This document shows positions 4,439 through 58,425 of a stretch of 58,425 nt of DNA, piece by piece. Positions within the stretch are counted from its first letter, which is position 1. Every line of letters begins with the position of its first letter. The stretch comes from Pseudomonadota bacterium (GTDB taxonomy: Bacteria > Pseudomonadota > Gammaproteobacteria > Burkholderiales > Burkholderiaceae_C), in NCBI GenBank assembly GCA_021805825.1, contig JAJZEC010000015.1, forward strand, positions 1 through 58,425, read 5' to 3'. The notes beneath the pieces were generated by a model that was not told the DNA's origin, did not search any database, and saw only the letters and a list, made by a program, of their open reading frames with translations. Both the position numbers and the translations under genes were made by a program.

Positions 4439-5179
4439 GTGAACACTCGAAGCGATGCATCCGACGCCGGCCTGCCGGAACGCCTGCGCCAGGTGCGGCT
4501 GCGCATCGCGCAAGCGGCTCGCGCCGCCGGGCGCGACCCCGCCGCCGTGCGCCTGCTGGCGGTGTCCAAGACCTTCGCGGCGCAGGCCGTGGAGGAGCTG
4601 GCCGCGTGCGGGCAGGACGAGTTCGGCGAGAACTACGTGCAGGAGGCGCTGCCCAAGATCTCCGCGCTGCGCGGGCGCTGGCCCGCGCTGTGCTGGCATT
4701 TCATCGGCCCGTTGCAAGGCAACAAGACGCGCGACGTGGCGTGCCATTTCGACTGGGTGCACAGTATCGACCGCATCGACCTGGCGCGGCGGCTGTCGGC
4801 GCAGCGCCCGGCCGAGCGCGACGGCCACGCGCTGCCGCCGCTGCAGGTATGCCTGCAGGTCAACATCAGCGGCGAGTCGAGCAAGCGCGGGGTGGCTCCG
4901 GAGCAACTGCCCGAACTGGCGCGCCAGGTGGCCGGCCTGCCGGCCCTGCGCCTGCGCGGCCTGATGTGCTTGCCGGCGCCGGCGCAAGGCCTGGAGGCGC
5001 AGCGCGAACCCTTCGCCCGCCTGCGCGCACTGCAGCAGCAGCTGGTGGAGCTGGGCCTGCCCCTCGATACCCTGTCGATGGGCATGAGCGCCGACCTCGA
5101 GGCGGCGGTGCTCGAGGGTGCGACCATGGTGCGCGTGGGCAGCGCGCTGTTCGGGCAGCGCGCGCCCCGTCCGGCCTGA
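4439..5179 (+). CDS. yggS: YggS/PROSC family PLP-homeostasis protein
   Basis: A 246-residue fold-type III PLP-binding protein of the YggS/PLPBP family, a single alanine-racemase-like barrel without known catalytic activity that maintains pyridoxal phosphate and amino-acid balance. The PLP lysine is in LLAVSKTF at about residue 38. Other signatures are FGENYVQEALPK, WHFIGPLQGNK, HSIDR, LMCLPA, LSMGMSADLEAA and RVGSALFG. The start is the GTG at 4439; in-frame codons further upstream run into the divergent pilT leader and look non-coding. It is divergent from pilT, as in many proteobacteria. Confidence 0.93.
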   Translation: MNTRSDASDAGLPERLRQVRLRIAQAARAAGRDPAAVRLLAVSKTFAAQAVEELAACGQDEFGENYVQEALPKISALRGRWPALCWHFIGPLQGNKTRDVACHFDWVHSIDRIDLARRLSAQRPAERDGHALPPLQVCLQVNISGESSKRGVAPEQLPELARQVAGLPALRLRGLMCLPAPAQGLEAQREPFARLRALQQQLVELGLPLDTLSMGMSADLEAAVLEGATMVRVGSALFGQRAPRPA

Positions 5180-49991: not shown

Positions 49992-50013
49992 GATGCGGCG
50001 CGGCCGGTGGGAT

Positions 50014-50862
50014 TCAGACCTGCTCGCAGGCCTGCACGGTGTTGGACAGCAGCATCGCGATGGTCATCGGGCCGACGCCACCGGGAACCGGGGTGATCCA
50101 TGCGGCCACCTCGCTTGCCGCCTCGAAGTCCACGTCGCCGCACAGGCTCCCGTCGGGCAGGCGGTTGATGCCGACATCGATGACCGCGGCGCCCGGCTTG
50201 ATCATCCCCGCGCCGATGATCCGCGGCCTGCCGACCGCGGCCACCAGCACGTCGGCCTGCCGGCAGGTCTGCGCCAGATCCGGCGTGCCGCTGTGGGCGA
50301 TGGTCACCGTGGCGTTGCGTTCCAGCAGCATCAGGGCCATCGGCTTGCCGACGATGTTGGAGCGGCCGACGACGACCGCGTGCCTGCCGCGCAGATCCCT
50401 CAGGCCGATGTGCTCGAGCATGCGCATGCAGCCCAGCGGGGTGCAGGGGCGAAAGCCCGGTTGGCCGACCAGCAGCGCCCCGGCGTTGGCGACATGGAAT
50501 CCATCGACATCCTTGCGTGGGGAGATCGCCTCGATCACCCGCTGCGCATGGATGTGCGCGGGCAGCGGAAGCTGCACCAGGATGCCATGCACGCTGTCGT
50601 CGCGGTTCAGCGCATGGATGCGCGCCAGCAGTTCGGATTCGCGCAGATCGGCGTCGAAGCGATGGTGCTGCGACTCGATGCCCGCCTGCGCGCAGGCGGA
50701 GATCTTGTTGCGCACATAGATCTGGCTCGCCGGGTCGTCGCCGACCAGCACCACGGCCAGCGCCGGCGGACGGCCGCGCGCGCGCAGCGCGGCGACGCGC
50801 TCGGCGAGTTCGGCGCGGCATTGCGCCGCCAGGGATTTACCGTCGATCCGTTGGGCTGTCAT
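50014..50862 (-). CDS. folD: Methylenetetrahydrofolate dehydrogenase / cyclohydrolase
   Basis: A 282-residue bifunctional NADP enzyme interconverting methylene- and formyl-tetrahydrofolate. The catalytic Lys is in [45 protein letters not shown] and [11 protein letters not shown] are family signatures. Start ATG 50862 ([14 protein letters not shown]). It lies between the pdh-linked regulator genes and prlC, separated from the former by a GC-rich palindrome. Confidence 0.98.
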
Positions 50863-50873
50863 CGCTGGGGCAG

Positions 50874-50894
50874 GCGCGCGGCCTGGCCGCGCGC
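50874..50894. terminator. 21-bp near-perfect palindrome after the response-regulator gene
   Basis: Arms GCGCGCGGCC and GGCCGCGCGC surround a single T in the 36-bp gap between the regulator stop and the folD start. There is no T-tract. A transcription pause or weak terminator is possible. Confidence 0.35.
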
Positions 50895-50898
50895 AGGT

Positions 50899-51513
50899 TC
50901 ATTTGTTGGCGCCGAGGGCGATCTTCAGCAGATCCGCGACGGTGTTGGCACCCAGCTTTTCCATGATGTTGGCTCGGTGCGCCTCTACCGTCTTGATGCT
51001 GATGTTCAGGTCGTCGGCGATCTGCTTGTTCAGGCGCCCGGCGACGATGCGCTCGAGGACCTGCGATTCGCGGCTGGTCAGCTTGGCGAGCAAGGCCTCG
51101 CGGCTGGCGCTCTGCGCGTGCTCCTCGAGTTCGACGCGGGCCTTCTGCAACATGCGGTCGACGAGGTCGCGCAGCAGGCTTTCATTGAAGGGCTTCTCGA
51201 TGAAATCGACAGCGCCCTTCTTCATCGTGGCCACCGCCATCGGCACGTCGCCATGGCCGGTGATGAAGGCCAGCGGAATGCTCTGTCCGCGCTGCAGCAG
51301 GCGCTCCTGCAGTTCCAGTCCGTTCATGCCCGGCATGCGCACATCGACGATCAGGCAGGCGACTTCGCGCGCATCGAAGCGCGCCAGGAAGGCCTCGGCG
51401 GAGTCGAAGCAGCGTACGCGGTAGTCGTTGCCCTCGAGCAGCCACTGCAGGGAGTCGCGCACCGCCTCGTCGTCGTCGATCACGTACACGGTGCCTTTGT
51501 TCGCTGGTTTCAT
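50899..51513 (-). CDS. FixJ/LuxR-type response regulator next to the pdh genes
   Basis: A 204-residue two-domain regulator. The receiver domain (1-125) has the acidic pair VIDDDE, phospho-acceptor Asp57 in LIVDVRMPGMNG, the Thr in FITGHGD and the Lys in FIEKPF. The C-terminal LuxR/FixJ helix-turn-helix (about 140-200) has LTSRESQVLERIVAGRLNKQ and ISIKTVEAHRANIMEKLG. ATG 51513 overlaps the histidine-kinase stop (ATGA), so the two are co-translated. The divergently transcribed aceE-aceF genes are the likely targets, by position only. Confidence 0.95.
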   Translation of the reverse strand: MKPANKGTVYVIDDDEAVRDSLQWLLEGNDYRVRCFDSAEAFLARFDAREVACLIVDVRMPGMNGLELQERLLQRGQSIPLAFITGHGDVPMAVATMKKGAVDFIEKPFNESLLRDLVDRMLQKARVELEEHAQSASREALLAKLTSRESQVLERIVAGRLNKQIADDLNISIKTVEAHRANIMEKLGANTVADLLKIALGANK

Positions 51514-54044
51514 GGACTCGTCGGGTCAAGGGCGGTTGCGGCGGTCGTGCCGACCTGCGCGGCGACAGCGACGGGATGTTCCGTGTCCTGCGGCGCTGCG
51601 GCGCCGCTTGCGCGGGACGGCGGGTCAAGCGGCAGCGTGAAGGAGAAAACGCTGCCGCACAGAACCTCCCCATTGTATTGATTCTGCGCCCACAGACGGC
51701 CCTCGTGGAATTCGACGATCGAGCGGCAGATGTTGAGACCGATGCCCAGTCCCTCGGTCTTCGTGGTGTAAAAGGCTTCGAACAGGTGGCTCATCACGTC
51801 GTCGGCCACCCCGGTTCCGTTGTCGCGCACGCTGAAGCACACCTGATCCTGCTGTTGCGCGATGTCGAGTTGCACACTGCGCAGCACGCCCTGGCGTGCT
51901 GCCTTGTCCACCGCCTCGGCGGCGTTGCGCAGCAGATTCAGCAGCACCTGCTCGATCAGGATGGGGTCGGCGTGCAGCATGGGAAGGCCGGGCGCGATGC
52001 GGGTGGACAGCCGCACATTGCGCCTGCGCAATTCGATTTCCGCGAGTTCGAGGGTGTTCTGCACGATATCGGGCACCCGGCAGGCCACGCGGTGGGGCTC
52101 GCTCTTCTTGACGAAGTCCCGCACCCGCCGGATGACCGCCGCCGCGCGCTGGGCCTGGCGGGCGGTCTTCTCCAGCGCCGGCTGCAGATCCTCGGCAGGC
52201 ATCGCGTGGTTGCGCAGGCGGGCGATCATGCCCGAGCAGTAGTTGTTGATCGCCGTCAGCGGCTGGTTGAGTTCGTGGGCCAGCGAGGAGGCCATTTCGC
52301 CCATCGCGATCAGGCGGCTGGTGATCTGTGCCTTCTCCTCCTGATTGCGCGCGATCTCCTCGGCCTGGTGGCGCGCCGTGACGTCGGTGGCGATGAGCAT
52401 CTGCACGACCCGCGAATCCACCCACTGGATGTAACGCTGTCGGACGTCGAACCAGCGATCCAGCGATGCGACATGGATTTCGTGGGCCTGCGCCGGACTG
52501 TGCAGGAACTCGTCGGCCGGCAGGCCGGCGAAGCTGTCGACCGCGTCGTCGCCGTCCACGCCGGCGCCCGGCGGGGCCTCCTGGCCGCTGAGCAGATGGT
52601 GTCCGTGCGCCGAGGCTCCGAACCACTGCCGATAGAGCTTGTTGGCATAAAGTTGCTCGTCGCGATCGATGCCGAGCACGGACACCGCGGCGTCGAGCCC
52701 CTCCAGCACGGCGACGAAGCGTTCGTGCGAGGCCGCCAGTTCCTGGCGGATGCGTGTGGGTTCGGTGATGTCGGTGATCGACATGACCCAGCCGGTCTGC
52801 CGGTCGCGGTTGTCGATCAGCGGCGAGGCGTAGACGCGGGCGTCGAATTCGCTGCCGTCCTTGCGCGTCAACTTGAGCGCGAAGCCCGAAGGAGGCGCCA
52901 GGCCGTCCAGGGTCTGCTGCAGCGCGAGGGCCATTTCCGCGCGCCGTCGCACCGGCCAGTAGGGATGGGGGGGAGACTGGCCGACGAGGTCGCGCTCGGC
53001 GAAGCCGGTCATTTTGCAGAAGGCTGCGTTGACATAGCCGATGCGGCCCTGCAGGTCGATGGCCTGCATCCCGGTGGACAGCGAGTTCTCCATCGCGCGC
53101 CGGAACGCGGTCTCGCGCGTCAGGCGCTGCTGCACCTGCAGACGCTCCCGCATCTGCCGCCAGCCGCCCCACTGCATCCAGAGCATCAAGGCCGACAGTG
53201 CGAACACCGCCCAGTACAGGCCGCGTGCCGTCCATCCAGGCCGAGAGTGGTAGCTGCTGACGCGCATCTCCAGTCCGCTGCCGAACGGGGACAGCGCGAC
53301 CATGTATTGCAGCGGCTTGCGCTCGACGCTGCCGGCCGCGGTGTTGGCCAGCACCTGATGCGTCAGACGGTCGACCAGCGCGACCGCGTAATGGCTGCTC
53401 AGTTCCTGCACCGTGGTGCCGCGCATCAGGCCGTCGATGGAAAAGACGGCGCCGACCGTCCCGGCGTACTGCGTGCCCAGCAACAGCGGCGTGGCCGACT
53501 CGATCACCCAGCCCAGATCGGGCAGGCGGTACGGCGTGCTGTACACCGGATGCAGGGACAGTCTGGCGAGCTGCTGCAGGCGTTGCGATTCCTGGTGCAG
53601 CGGCAGGTGCTGCGGTCCGATCCAGCGCAATTCGCGCGGCACCTTCGCGCTGGTCACCAGGTGCACGAGGCGGCCGCCCCCATCGGTCGCGTACACGGCA
53701 ACGACCGGGGCATGCTGGTGCACGAAGTGGTGGGCCAGGTCGGGAAAGCGCTCGCCGCCACGTCGCGTCTCCAGCACATTGGCCATCGACTGCAACTGTT
53801 CCTGCATCAGGGCCATTTCCAGGCTCATGCGCTGGCGTGCCCATTCGCTGTCGCGCTGCAGGGTGTCGCGTTCGCGCTGCAGGGCGGTCTGCTGGCTGTA
53901 GCGCAACAGCGCCGCCGCCGCACCCAGGAACAGCACCAGCGAAAGCAGCGGCACGAACAGCAGCAGCCGCTCGGCACTGAGGCTGCGCAACAGGCGATGG
54001 CCGCGGCGTCGCAGCCGCGGCAGACGGGCAGAAACGATGTTCAC
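51510..54044 (-). CDS. PAS-domain sensor histidine kinase divergent from aceE
   Basis: An 844-residue kinase. Transmembrane helices at about 27-48 and 275-293 flank a periplasmic sensor of about 225 residues resembling dCache/DctB folds (VVAVYATDGGGRL, GWVIESATPLL). Two PAS domains follow (about 312-430, with QAIDLQGRIGYVNAAFCKMTG, and 438-558). The FixL/NtrB-like H-box has His590 (SSLAHELNQPL), and the ATPase has LLRNAAEAV, DNGTGV and GLGIGLNIC. The start is the GTG at 54044. The ligand is unknown; a carboxylate such as pyruvate would be a sensible guess given the neighbours. It pairs with the LuxR-type regulator. Confidence 0.94.
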   Translation of the reverse strand: MNIVSARLPRLRRRGHRLLRSLSAERLLLFVPLLSLVLFLGAAAALLRYSQQTALQRERDTLQRDSEWARQRMSLEMALMQEQLQSMANVLETRRGGERFPDLAHHFVHQHAPVVAVYATDGGGRLVHLVTSAKVPRELRWIGPQHLPLHQESQRLQQLARLSLHPVYSTPYRLPDLGWVIESATPLLLGTQYAGTVGAVFSIDGLMRGTTVQELSSHYAVALVDRLTHQVLANTAAGSVERKPLQYMVALSPFGSGLEMRVSSYHSRPGWTARGLYWAVFALSALMLWMQWGGWRQMRERLQVQQRLTRETAFRRAMENSLSTGMQAIDLQGRIGYVNAAFCKMTGFAERDLVGQSPPHPYWPVRRRAEMALALQQTLDGLAPPSGFALKLTRKDGSEFDARVYASPLIDNRDRQTGWVMSITDITEPTRIRQELAASHERFVAVLEGLDAAVSVLGIDRDEQLYANKLYRQWFGASAHGHHLLSGQEAPPGAGVDGDDAVDSFAGLPADEFLHSPAQAHEIHVASLDRWFDVRQRYIQWVDSRVVQMLIATDVTARHQAEEIARNQEEKAQITSRLIAMGEMASSLAHELNQPLTAINNYCSGMIARLRNHAMPAEDLQPALEKTARQAQRAAAVIRRVRDFVKKSEPHRVACRVPDIVQNTLELAEIELRRRNVRLSTRIAPGLPMLHADPILIEQVLLNLLRNAAEAVDKAARQGVLRSVQLDIAQQQDQVCFSVRDNGTGVADDVMSHLFEAFYTTKTEGLGIGLNICRSIVEFHEGRLWAQNQYNGEVLCGSVFSFTLPLDPPSRASGAAAPQDTEHPVAVAAQVGTTAATALDPTSP

Positions 54045-54122
54045 CCCGCCAGTCTATGCAAAGCCCGTGAACCGGCGCATGCTGCGCAGGCAGGAGCCTG
54101 GCGCCGGAATCGATAAAATTTC

Positions 54123-54151
54123 ATAATATAAAACAGCATGTTGCCATCCAA
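54123..54151 (-). promoter_or_regulatory. Histidine-kinase promoter
   Basis: On the minus strand TTGGAT (54146-54151) and TATTAT (54123-54128) are 17 bases apart. The -10 box is good (5/6) and the -35 box weak (3/6). It shares base 54146 with the aceE -35 box. Confidence 0.55.
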
Positions 54152-54169
54152 AAAATTCTTTGCCATACT
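54141..54169 (+). promoter_or_regulatory. aceE promoter
   Basis: TTGCCA (54141-54146) and CATACT (54164-54169) are 17 bases apart in a locally AT-rich tract. This predicts a transcript start near 54176 and a leader of about 20 bases before the aceE ATG. Confidence 0.65.
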
Positions 54170-54179
54170 CGCTGGCAAA
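54159..54179. promoter_or_regulatory. Inverted repeat over the aceE -10 and start site
   Basis: TTTGCCA and TGGCAAA are perfect 7-base arms around TACTCGC. The repeat covers the -10 box and the predicted +1, so a bound dimer would block aceE. The half-site TTGCCA also occurs at 54141. Confidence 0.55.
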
Positions 54180-54196
54180 CCACCGAGGAGACTCCC

Positions 54197-56902
<2,706 letters not shown>

Positions 56903-56925
56903 AGGCCCGCACACGCCAAGAACCA

Positions 56926-57052
56926 GCAGGAGACACGCGAAATGGCGCTGATCGAGGTACGGGTTCCGGACATCGGGGATTTCAAGGATGTCGAGGTCAT
57001 CGAGTTGCTGGTCAAGCCGGGAGACCGGATCGAGGCCGAGCAGTCGCTGGTG
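56926..57052 (+). repeat. 127-bp direct repeat, copy 1 (aceF start)
   Basis: From the ribosome-binding site GCAGGAG through codon 37 of aceF, this segment is identical base for base to 58299-58425. The base before each copy differs (A versus C), so 127 bases is the exact match length visible in the window. Confidence 0.98.
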
Positions 57053-58297
57053 ACGGTGGAAAGCGACAAGGCGAGCATGGAGATTCCCAGCAGCGCCGGC
57101 GGGGTGGTGCAGGAGTTGCTGGTCAAGCTGGGTGACAAGGTCAGCGAGGGCACGGTGCTGCTGCGTCTGGAGGCAGCGGGCGCGGCGGTCGAGCCGGCGC
57201 CTGCCGCGGCCCCGGCGGCTGCCGCCCCGGCTCCGGCTGCTACGGCTCCGGCTGCTACGGCTTCCGCCCCGGCTGCGGCGCCTGCGGCCGCGCTGGCTTC
57301 GCAACCGCGGCGCGCGCAGCCGCCTACGGCCGGTTTGCCGCCGGTGGTCGCCGAGCCCGCTGTCGGCAGCCTGCCGCACGCCTCGCCTTCGGTGCGCAAG
57401 CTGGCGCGCGAATTCGGTGTTCCGCTGCAGGAAGTCGCCGGCAGCGGATCCAAGGGCCGCATCACCGCCGAGGACGTCCGCTCCTTCGTGCAGCAGGTGA
57501 TGAGCGGGCGCAGCGCGACCCCGGCCGCGCAGGGCGGCGGGGGTGGGCGCGGCGGCTCGCTCGACCTGCTGCCGTGGCCACAGGTCGACTTCGCGCGTTT
57601 CGGCACGGTCTCTACGCGGCCGTTGTCGCGGATCAAGAAGATCTCCGGGCCGAACCTGGCGCGCAACTGGGTGATGATTCCCCATGTCACCCAGTTCGAC
57701 CAGGCCGACATCACCGAACTCGAATCCTTCCGCAAGTCCTTCAACGCCGGTGCCGGCACTGGCGGCGTCAAGCTGACCATGCTCGCGTTCGTGGTCAAGG
57801 CCTGCTGCGCGGCGCTCAGGCAGATGCCCGAGTTCAACGCCTCGCTGGACGAAAAGGGCGAGAACCTGGTGCTGAAGGACTACATCCACATGGGCTTCGC
57901 CGCCGACACCCCGCAGGGGCTGGTGGTGCCGGTGCTGAAGGATGCCGACCGCAAGGGCCTGCGCGACATCGCTTCCGAAATGTCCCGGCTCGCGGGCAGC
58001 GCACGCGAGGGCAAGCTCAAGCCGGGCGACATGCAGGGCGCGAGCTTCACGATCTCCAGCCTTGGCGGGGTCGGGGGAACCGCGTTCACTCCGATCATCA
58101 ACGCTCCCGAAGTGGCGATCCTCGGGCTGTCGAAGTCGCAGATGCAGCCGGTCTGGGATGGCAAGCAGTTCCAGCCGCGCTTGATGCTGCCGCTGTCCCT
58201 GTCGTACGACCACCGGGTCATCGACGGCGCGATGGCGGCGCGCTTCACCACCCTGTTGGGTGAATTGCTCGGCGACCTGCGCCGGGTTCTGCTCTGA
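56942..58297 (+). CDS. aceF: Pyruvate dehydrogenase E2, dihydrolipoyl acetyltransferase
   Basis: A 451-residue E2 core. One lipoyl domain (1-75) has Lys43 in ESDKASMEIP. A long Ala/Pro linker (about 80-130) contains a duplicated 15-base unit at 57229-57258. The peripheral subunit-binding domain (about 147-180) has SPSVRKLAREFGV, and the C-terminal catalytic domain has His in LSYDHRVIDGA. A single lipoyl domain is fewer than in E. coli, which has three. ATG 56942 has AGGAG 10-11 bases upstream. The next gene begins 17 bases after the stop with the same lipoyl sequence. Confidence 0.97.
   Translation: MALIEVRVPDIGDFKDVEVIELLVKPGDRIEAEQSLVTVESDKASMEIPSSAGGVVQELLVKLGDKVSEGTVLLRLEAAGAAVEPAPAAAPAAAAPAPAATAPAATASAPAAAPAAALASQPRRAQPPTAGLPPVVAEPAVGSLPHASPSVRKLAREFGVPLQEVAGSGSKGRITAEDVRSFVQQVMSGRSATPAAQGGGGGRGGSLDLLPWPQVDFARFGTVSTRPLSRIKKISGPNLARNWVMIPHVTQFDQADITELESFRKSFNAGAGTGGVKLTMLAFVVKACCAALRQMPEFNASLDEKGENLVLKDYIHMGFAADTPQGLVVPVLKDADRKGLRDIASEMSRLAGSAREGKLKPGDMQGASFTISSLGGVGGTAFTPIINAPEVAILGLSKSQMQPVWDGKQFQPRLMLPLSLSYDHRVIDGAMAARFTTLLGELLGDLRRVLL
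57229..57258 (+). repeat. 15-bp tandem duplication in the AceF linker
   Basis: GGCTCCGGCTGCTAC occurs twice in direct succession and encodes Ala/Pro repeats of the flexible linker that lets the lipoyl domain swing. It is in frame. Confidence 0.85.
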
Positions 58298-58298
58298 C

Positions 58299-58425
58299 GC
58301 AGGAGACACGCGAAATGGCGCTGATCGAGGTACGGGTTCCGGACATCGGGGATTTCAAGGATGTCGAGGTCATCGAGTTGCTGGTCAAGCCGGGAGACCG
58401 GATCGAGGCCGAGCAGTCGCTGGTG
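58299..58425 (+). repeat. 127-bp direct repeat, copy 2 (window end)
   Basis: This is an exact copy of 56926-57052, including ribosome-binding site, spacer and 37 codons. The window stops at base 58425 while still inside the match, so the true repeat may be longer. Confidence 0.98.
58315..58425 (+). CDS. lpdA: Partial gene: N-terminal lipoyl domain, probably lipoyl-containing dihydrolipoamide dehydrogenase
   Basis: Thirty-seven codons are present, beginning MALIEVRVPDIGDFKDVEVI and identical to the start of AceF; the gene is cut by the window end before the lipoyl Lys. In several betaproteobacteria and Neisseria the third pdh gene, lpdA/pdhL, carries an N-terminal lipoyl domain, so this is the most likely identity. 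A second E2 or an assembly artefact are alternatives. ATG 58315 has AGGAG 10 bases upstream, just as in aceF. Confidence 0.7.
   Translation, partial: MALIEVRVPDIGDFKDVEVIELLVKPGDRIEAEQSLV

Follow-up and report, generated by a model that had tools for sequence, protein, structure and literature searches.

Why does a bacterial contig end inside an exact copy of the start of one of its own genes, and does that copy belong to a real second gene? The window analyzed here is an entire contig (C60, 58,425 bp) of a genome, G000, assembled into 110 contigs and 3.35 Mb. Direct comparison within the window shows that bases 58299-58425 are identical to 56926-57052 at 127/127 positions, with a start-to-start spacing of 1373 bp. 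The base preceding the repeat is A for copy 1 and C for copy 2, and 6/39 bases match upstream of the two copies in an ungapped comparison. The first-pass annotation had described an exact duplication from ribosome-binding site to codon 37, a differing base before each copy, and a window that stops inside the match, and all of this holds: each copy spans the ribosome-binding site, the ATG, and codons 1-37 to their end, copy 2 follows immediately on the aceF stop codon and repeats the ribosome-binding site and start codon of copy 1, and the contig end at 58425 falls inside copy 2. The features concerned are as follows.

54197..56902, + strand: aceE, pyruvate dehydrogenase (PDH) E1, 901 aa; open reading frame with Pfam PDH_E1_M and transketolase domains.
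56926..57052, + strand: repeat copy 1 (exact 127-bp repeat), comprising ribosome-binding site, start codon, and aceF codons 1-37.
56942..58297, + strand: aceF, PDH E2, 451 aa, with one lipoyl domain, one E3-binding domain, and the acyltransferase core; open reading frame with PF00364, PF02817, and PF00198.
56954..57169, + strand: aceF lipoyl domain (PF00364), residues 5-76, the unit homogenized with lpdA in relatives according to within-genome comparisons there.
57374..57481, + strand: aceF peripheral E3-binding domain (PF02817), residues 145-180.
57608..58291, + strand: aceF acyltransferase core (PF00198), residues 223-450, scored by presence and absence and missing from 9/28 genus assemblies.
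58299..58425, + strand: repeat copy 2 (exact repeat, reaching the contig end), comprising ribosome-binding site, start codon, and lpdA (E3) codons 1-37.
58315..58425, + strand: 5' end of lpdA, dihydrolipoamide dehydrogenase with an N-terminal lipoyl domain; assigned from the FAD/NAD part at G000:C13:110381-111862 (-) and the Pfam domains of that C13 fragment.

The 127-bp match is far beyond chance, because the other direct-repeat families listed for 50000-58425 (20 of 36) are 22-39 bases long and 70-92% alike, with the exception of one family that partly overlaps the 127-bp repeat. A search for the 127-bp sequence elsewhere in the 110-contig assembly gave no match (E <= 0.001). If the contig was cut by the assembler, the figure of 127 is set by its k and should be read only as a lower bound for the true repeat. 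Other open frames occupy the opposite strand of this region: one of 1422 codons at 54041-58309 (-), antisense to aceE-aceF and probably a by-product of GC-rich codon usage, and, upstream of aceE at 50899-54044 (-), sensor kinase-like and response regulator-like frames, named from their translations alone.

The first-pass annotation had taken the gene after aceF to be probably E3 and had placed the rest of it on another contig. Searching the window's own genome for the E3 family returned four matches above 280 bits, two of them above the family cut-off, and one of these two lies at the very end of contig C13 (111,862 bp), at C13:110411-111823 (-). This E3 frame is the last feature of C13, continues the orientation of C60, and runs off the contig end within a linker rich in Ala and Pro, with 39 bp between that end and the FAD domain match. 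Used as a query, the C13 fragment recovered the PDH E3 in 23/27 other genomes of the genus at 78-86% identity; in G024, it matched only a 187-residue piece of PDH E3. Both expectations are thus borne out, in that the next gene is an E3 with an N-terminal lipoyl domain and the rest of lpdA, its enzyme part, stands at the end of C13. The lpdA of the window's genome, with its 5' end on C60 and its enzyme part on C13, is compatible with a lipoyl-E3 fusion split over two contigs; the gene is whole in relatives.

Gene order and spacing in related genomes are consistent with joining C60 to C13. A second E2 gene, taken as sucB by its neighbors, is found on C13 about 16.5 kb after lpdA on the same strand, and a second E2 gene (again sucB by its neighbors) follows aceF at 16-23 kb on the same strand in the eight genomes measured, all with both genes on one contig (G005, G010, G011, G012, G013, G018, G021, and G022). 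In 12 genus genomes, 306-357 bp separate the lpdA start from the position that corresponds to the beginning of C13, and 111 bp of lpdA is already present on C60, so by comparison with these relatives the gap between C60 and C13 would be about 195-246 bp. The terminal 127 bp of C13 gave no match to aceF and the join is not closed by an overlap; we therefore infer a second break between C60 and C13, perhaps in the Ala/Pro linker. For the other end of C60, a search for a 127-bp partner contig found none.

The contig end itself had been interpreted as exactly one 127-base k-mer of a longer repeat, and assemblies of the same genus argue for this interpretation. In three of them (G002, G009, and G027), the aceE contig ends with exactly the 127 bases with which the lpdA contig starts, and in G006 the contig stops after an exact 127-bp copy into lpdA, as it does in the window. 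Contig ends sharing exactly 127 bases at a repeat are the signature of a de Bruijn assembler with k = 127 meeting a longer repeat, although here k is inferred from the overlaps. A canonical k set for SPAdes is 21, 33, 55, 77, 99, and 127 (PMC8172020). Other assemblies show a range of patterns: in G015, the stretch in common begins 127 bases from the end of the contig and mismatches after 72, 18 bases are common to the aceE and lpdA contig ends in G023, 197 bases are shared in G026 without reaching the end of the aceE contig, and G001 and G003 have no exact stretch common to the two ends. In the window's genome, the repeat runs 127 bp to the contig end, and no second contig shares it.

The positions of the breaks cluster in the lipoyl domains. 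Ten aceE contigs end within aceF, eight of them at +91 to +131 of the lipoyl domain (G001, G002, G003, G009, G015, G023, G024, and G027) and the others at +323 (G026) and +965 (G008), while in G000, G006, and G007 the contig stops within the lipoyl domain of lpdA, at +208 in G007. With these last three included, the break lies in a lipoyl copy or immediately next to one in 12/28 genus assemblies. The remaining 16 include 12 with both genes on one contig, G019 with a contig that starts inside aceF, G008 with a contig that ends in the aceF core, and G004 and G014, in which no match to aceE, the aceF core, or PDH E3 was obtained at the thresholds used. One of the 12, G020, was probably scaffolded across the same break, since a gap of 100 N ends 18 bases before its aceF start.

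A copy one k-mer long and placed at a contig end might also be produced by the assembly itself, if the contig had wrapped onto its own aceF and lpdA carried no repeated domain. We regard such an artifact as very unlikely, given that copy 2 follows the aceF stop codon directly and carries a ribosome-binding site and start codon, as the next gene would, and that in relatives whose assemblies keep the two genes together on a contig, lpdA starts with a lipoyl domain, near-identical to that of aceF in most of them, multi-megabase contigs included. Homogenized copies are present on large contigs in G013 (4.64 Mb), G021 (1.56 Mb), and, as a mosaic, G011 (2.02 Mb). We compared aceF and lpdA in the 12 genus genomes with both genes on one contig, and the longest exact runs were 309 bp in G020, 284 in G010, 248 in G021, 241 in G013, 236 in G018, 220 in G022, 191 in G011, 157 in G005, and 138 in G012; the longest runs of the other three were short (38 bp in G017, 33 in G025, and 17 in G016). 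Judging from these runs of 138-309 bp in 9/12 relatives, the repeat would exceed 127 bp in the window's own genome as well.

The starting points of the nine long runs range from 18 bases upstream of the start codon (G021, and G020, where the run is bounded by N) to +110 (G022). The claim that the shared tract takes in the translation-initiation region agrees with the exact runs that begin 18 bases ahead of the start codon in G021, in G020 (bounded by the 100 N), and in G006, although the 127-bp identity of G006, like that of G000, is partly forced by the contig ending and is not independent evidence for conversion.

A comparison of synonymous divergence inside and outside the domain had been proposed in the first-pass annotation, and its outcome favors conversion. 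Within genomes, pS over lipoyl codons 5-77 is 0-0.038 in 9/13 genus genomes with both copies assembled (G005, G010, G012, G013, G018, G020, G021, G022, and G026), against a between-genome lipoyl mean of 0.41 and means of 0.48-0.49 for the enzyme bodies. The within-genome values of the others are 0.134 (G011), 0.314 (G025), 0.387 (G017), and 0.590 (G016), and the partly visible copies of G000, G006, and G007 give 0-0.022. Between genomes, calculated from 66 pairs among the 12 genomes with both bodies complete (unhomogenized ones included), mean pS is 0.405 for the aceF lipoyl domain, 0.411 for the lpdA lipoyl domain, 0.475 for the aceF core, and 0.490 for E3; lipoyl pS ranges over 0.11-0.59, and all 66 orthologue pairs are at least 0.11 apart. 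Counts of silent and replacement differences place the homogenization at silent sites as well as in the protein.

Identity at silent sites might instead be maintained by selection on the DNA or RNA itself, for example on a shared regulatory element, and the fact that the identity sometimes takes in the initiation region (from 18 bases upstream of the start codon in G006 and G021) would fit such an element. A fixed element would be conserved, whereas the shared sequence varies between species (the lipoyl pS range just given) and matches within each, and three of the 13 genomes (G016, G017, and G025) do without homogenization altogether, which makes sequence-level selection of this kind extremely improbable.

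A tree of 52 lipoyl sequences points the same way as the silent sites, with 22 changes of gene label where orthology predicts 1. In the 15 genus genomes contributing both copies, the two are sisters in 11, neighbors in a grade in 2 (G018 and G022), and apart in 2 (G017 and G025); in seven family-level genomes, they are sisters in 4 (G034, G044, G051, and G052) and not in 3 (G029, G030, and G041). One genome retains a visible tract: in G011, the two copies have 16 differences, all of which lie outside a 191-bp identical core (p = 5e-5 under random placement). Within the genus, the mosaic test was clear only in G011, with p = 0.02 in G017, 0.07 in G025, and 0.69 in G016 and too few differences in most others.

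The first-pass annotation had left open a very recent duplication or ongoing conversion. The conversion part of this statement is upheld by the pS values, the tree, and the G011 mosaic, and the duplication part fares less well. A tandem duplication that had only just placed the aceF start before lpdA, in this genome alone, would leave the visible 127 bp perfectly identical, as they are; this origin is nonetheless hardly credible, since the lipoyl domain is in frame with E3 in 74/80 named loci, lpdA reads 589-628 codons from the lipoyl start in 17/17 family-level regions (a sample of 17 of 32 genomes), and the homogenized copies differ among species, which would require repeated copying. The lipoyl-bearing E3 is widespread, and therefore only the identity is recent. 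What is seen is lasting concerted evolution of one domain by gene conversion, not recent duplication.

With high confidence, we explain the locus by recurrent conversion that keeps the lipoyl domains of aceF and lpdA near-identical, with an identical stretch longer than the 127-bp k-mer stopping the contig and lpdA continuing on C13. The repeat is the lipoyl domain common to PDH E2 and PDH E3, whose genes are adjacent and in the same direction. Recombination between these direct copies, about 1.37 kb apart, would keep converting one to the other over a tract extending approximately from the start codon to the Ala/Pro linker, so that the copies would stay near-identical in DNA while species diverge. 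The engine would be homologous recombination, presumably RecA-dependent. Crossing-over between the direct repeats would delete aceF, and survivors would be expected to be mostly conversions. Where the identical stretch exceeds the 127-bp k-mer, the contig would stop one k-mer into copy 2, leaving the remainder of lpdA on C13. Gene conversion accounts for silent identity within genomes alongside change between them, for tract edges at the start codon and the linker, and for the G011 mosaic. It is possible, but in our judgment doubtful, that homogenization is itself favored by selection: in PDH of this genus, E2 and E3 would each carry one swinging lipoyl arm that has to fit the same E1 and E2 sites, conversion would keep the arms interchangeable as the enzymes change, and aceF-deleting crossing-over would be selected against, leaving conversion visible.

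Outside the genus, the lipoyl-E3 arrangement is ordinary and common in Burkholderiales, and strong homogenization is rare in the loci examined. The 80 named loci are the best search matches rather than a random sample, and 77 of them contain at least two lipoyl domains. Among the six in which an in-frame lipoyl-E3 was not found, L079 and L085 stop before the point at which it could be seen, and L050, L095, L108, and L112 do not show one. A pair with pS under 0.2 occurs in 7/80 (0.00 in L054, 0.07 in L093, 0.15 in L111, and 0.17-0.18 in L056, L088, L094, and L100), and the only fully homogenized one is L054, from Burkholderiales bacterium LSUCC0115, identical from the ATG to +248 with pS 0. In the family-level regions, pS between the first aceF copy and that of lpdA is 0.13-0.64, lowest in G051 and G044. 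Exact-run tests outside the genus call for caution, as the lipoyl-lysine core is conserved and can give such runs even where no conversion has occurred. In a Lysobacterales metagenome-assembled genome (MAG), L111, lipoyl copies at 5001 and 8912, 3.9 kb apart, have a 92-bp exact run in common. A quick E3 tree places the genus within Burkholderiales, surrounded by Comamonadaceae and Sphaerotilaceae, and the nearest named locus is the Burkholderiaceae-labeled MAG L095 (76% identity).

The process seen here is already known, but the case is new and its setting unusual, and it matters in practice for genome catalogues. Wang and Chen (2018) describe 26 long-lasting cases of concerted evolution of duplicate genes in bacteria, of which 22 encode members of stable complexes (PMC6053082), and the main text, by a text search, contains no occurrence of "lipoyl" or "dehydrogenase". 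Measurements of gene conversion exist for tuf and rRNA genes (PMC5485169, PMC8022953). As in those systems, copies within a genome are more alike than orthologues, silent sites included; unlike them, the unit here is one domain of two otherwise unrelated enzymes, about 1.4 kb apart, rather than whole duplicate genes. A literature search covering few subscription journals found no paper on concerted evolution or conversion of E2/E3 lipoyl domains. The locus is a clean natural example of concerted evolution of one protein domain in two different enzymes of the same complex, and many species of the group are available for comparison.

The protein itself has known structural relatives. The complete lpdA of G022, with domains PF00364, PF07992, and PF02852, matches PDB 5u25_A over residues 1-600 and both 1bhy (P64K) and 1ojt over residues 115-600. 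Two papers cite the lipoyl domain of Neisseria meningitidis P64K. Relative to P64K-type E3, only the homogenization with aceF is unusual here, and the contig break divides the gene in the window's genome.

Because the repeat is longer than short-read assemblers handle, genomes break there and the gene between the copies can be lost, including the piece with the PDH E2 core. The core is complete in 18/28 genus assemblies, cut in one (G008), and absent from nine (G001, G002, G003, G004, G009, G014, G024, G026, and G027), of which seven retain aceE. Two control genes were scored: 2/28 assemblies (G007 and G025) have no match fitting 2-oxoglutarate E2 at E <= 1e-30, perhaps through incomplete assembly, and the other 26 do; aceE is missing in 3/28 (G004, G014, and G019). 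Loss of the E2 core differs from loss of 2-oxoglutarate E2 at p = 0.040 (9/28 vs 2/28, Fisher), or p = 0.14 when G004 and G014 are left out (7/28 vs 2/28), and from loss of aceE at p = 0.10 (9/28 vs 3/28, Fisher). These counts alone are suggestive; contig ends inside the repeat are the better evidence and carry the argument. We also considered a true deletion of aceF in G002, G009, and G027 and rejected it, reasoning that, had aceF been lost, nothing would branch at this point and the aceE contig would run on into the lpdA contig. Metabolic models built from such genomes would wrongly call the PDH complex incomplete.

Two further observations concern individual assemblies. At G021:C5:362690-363588, aceE is matched by two pieces that overlap but lie in different frames, as a frameshift or an error in sequencing would produce. 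G007 (C122 and C87) and G019 (C322 and C292) each contain a second set of matches to PDH E3 or E2, perhaps from strain mixture or contamination.
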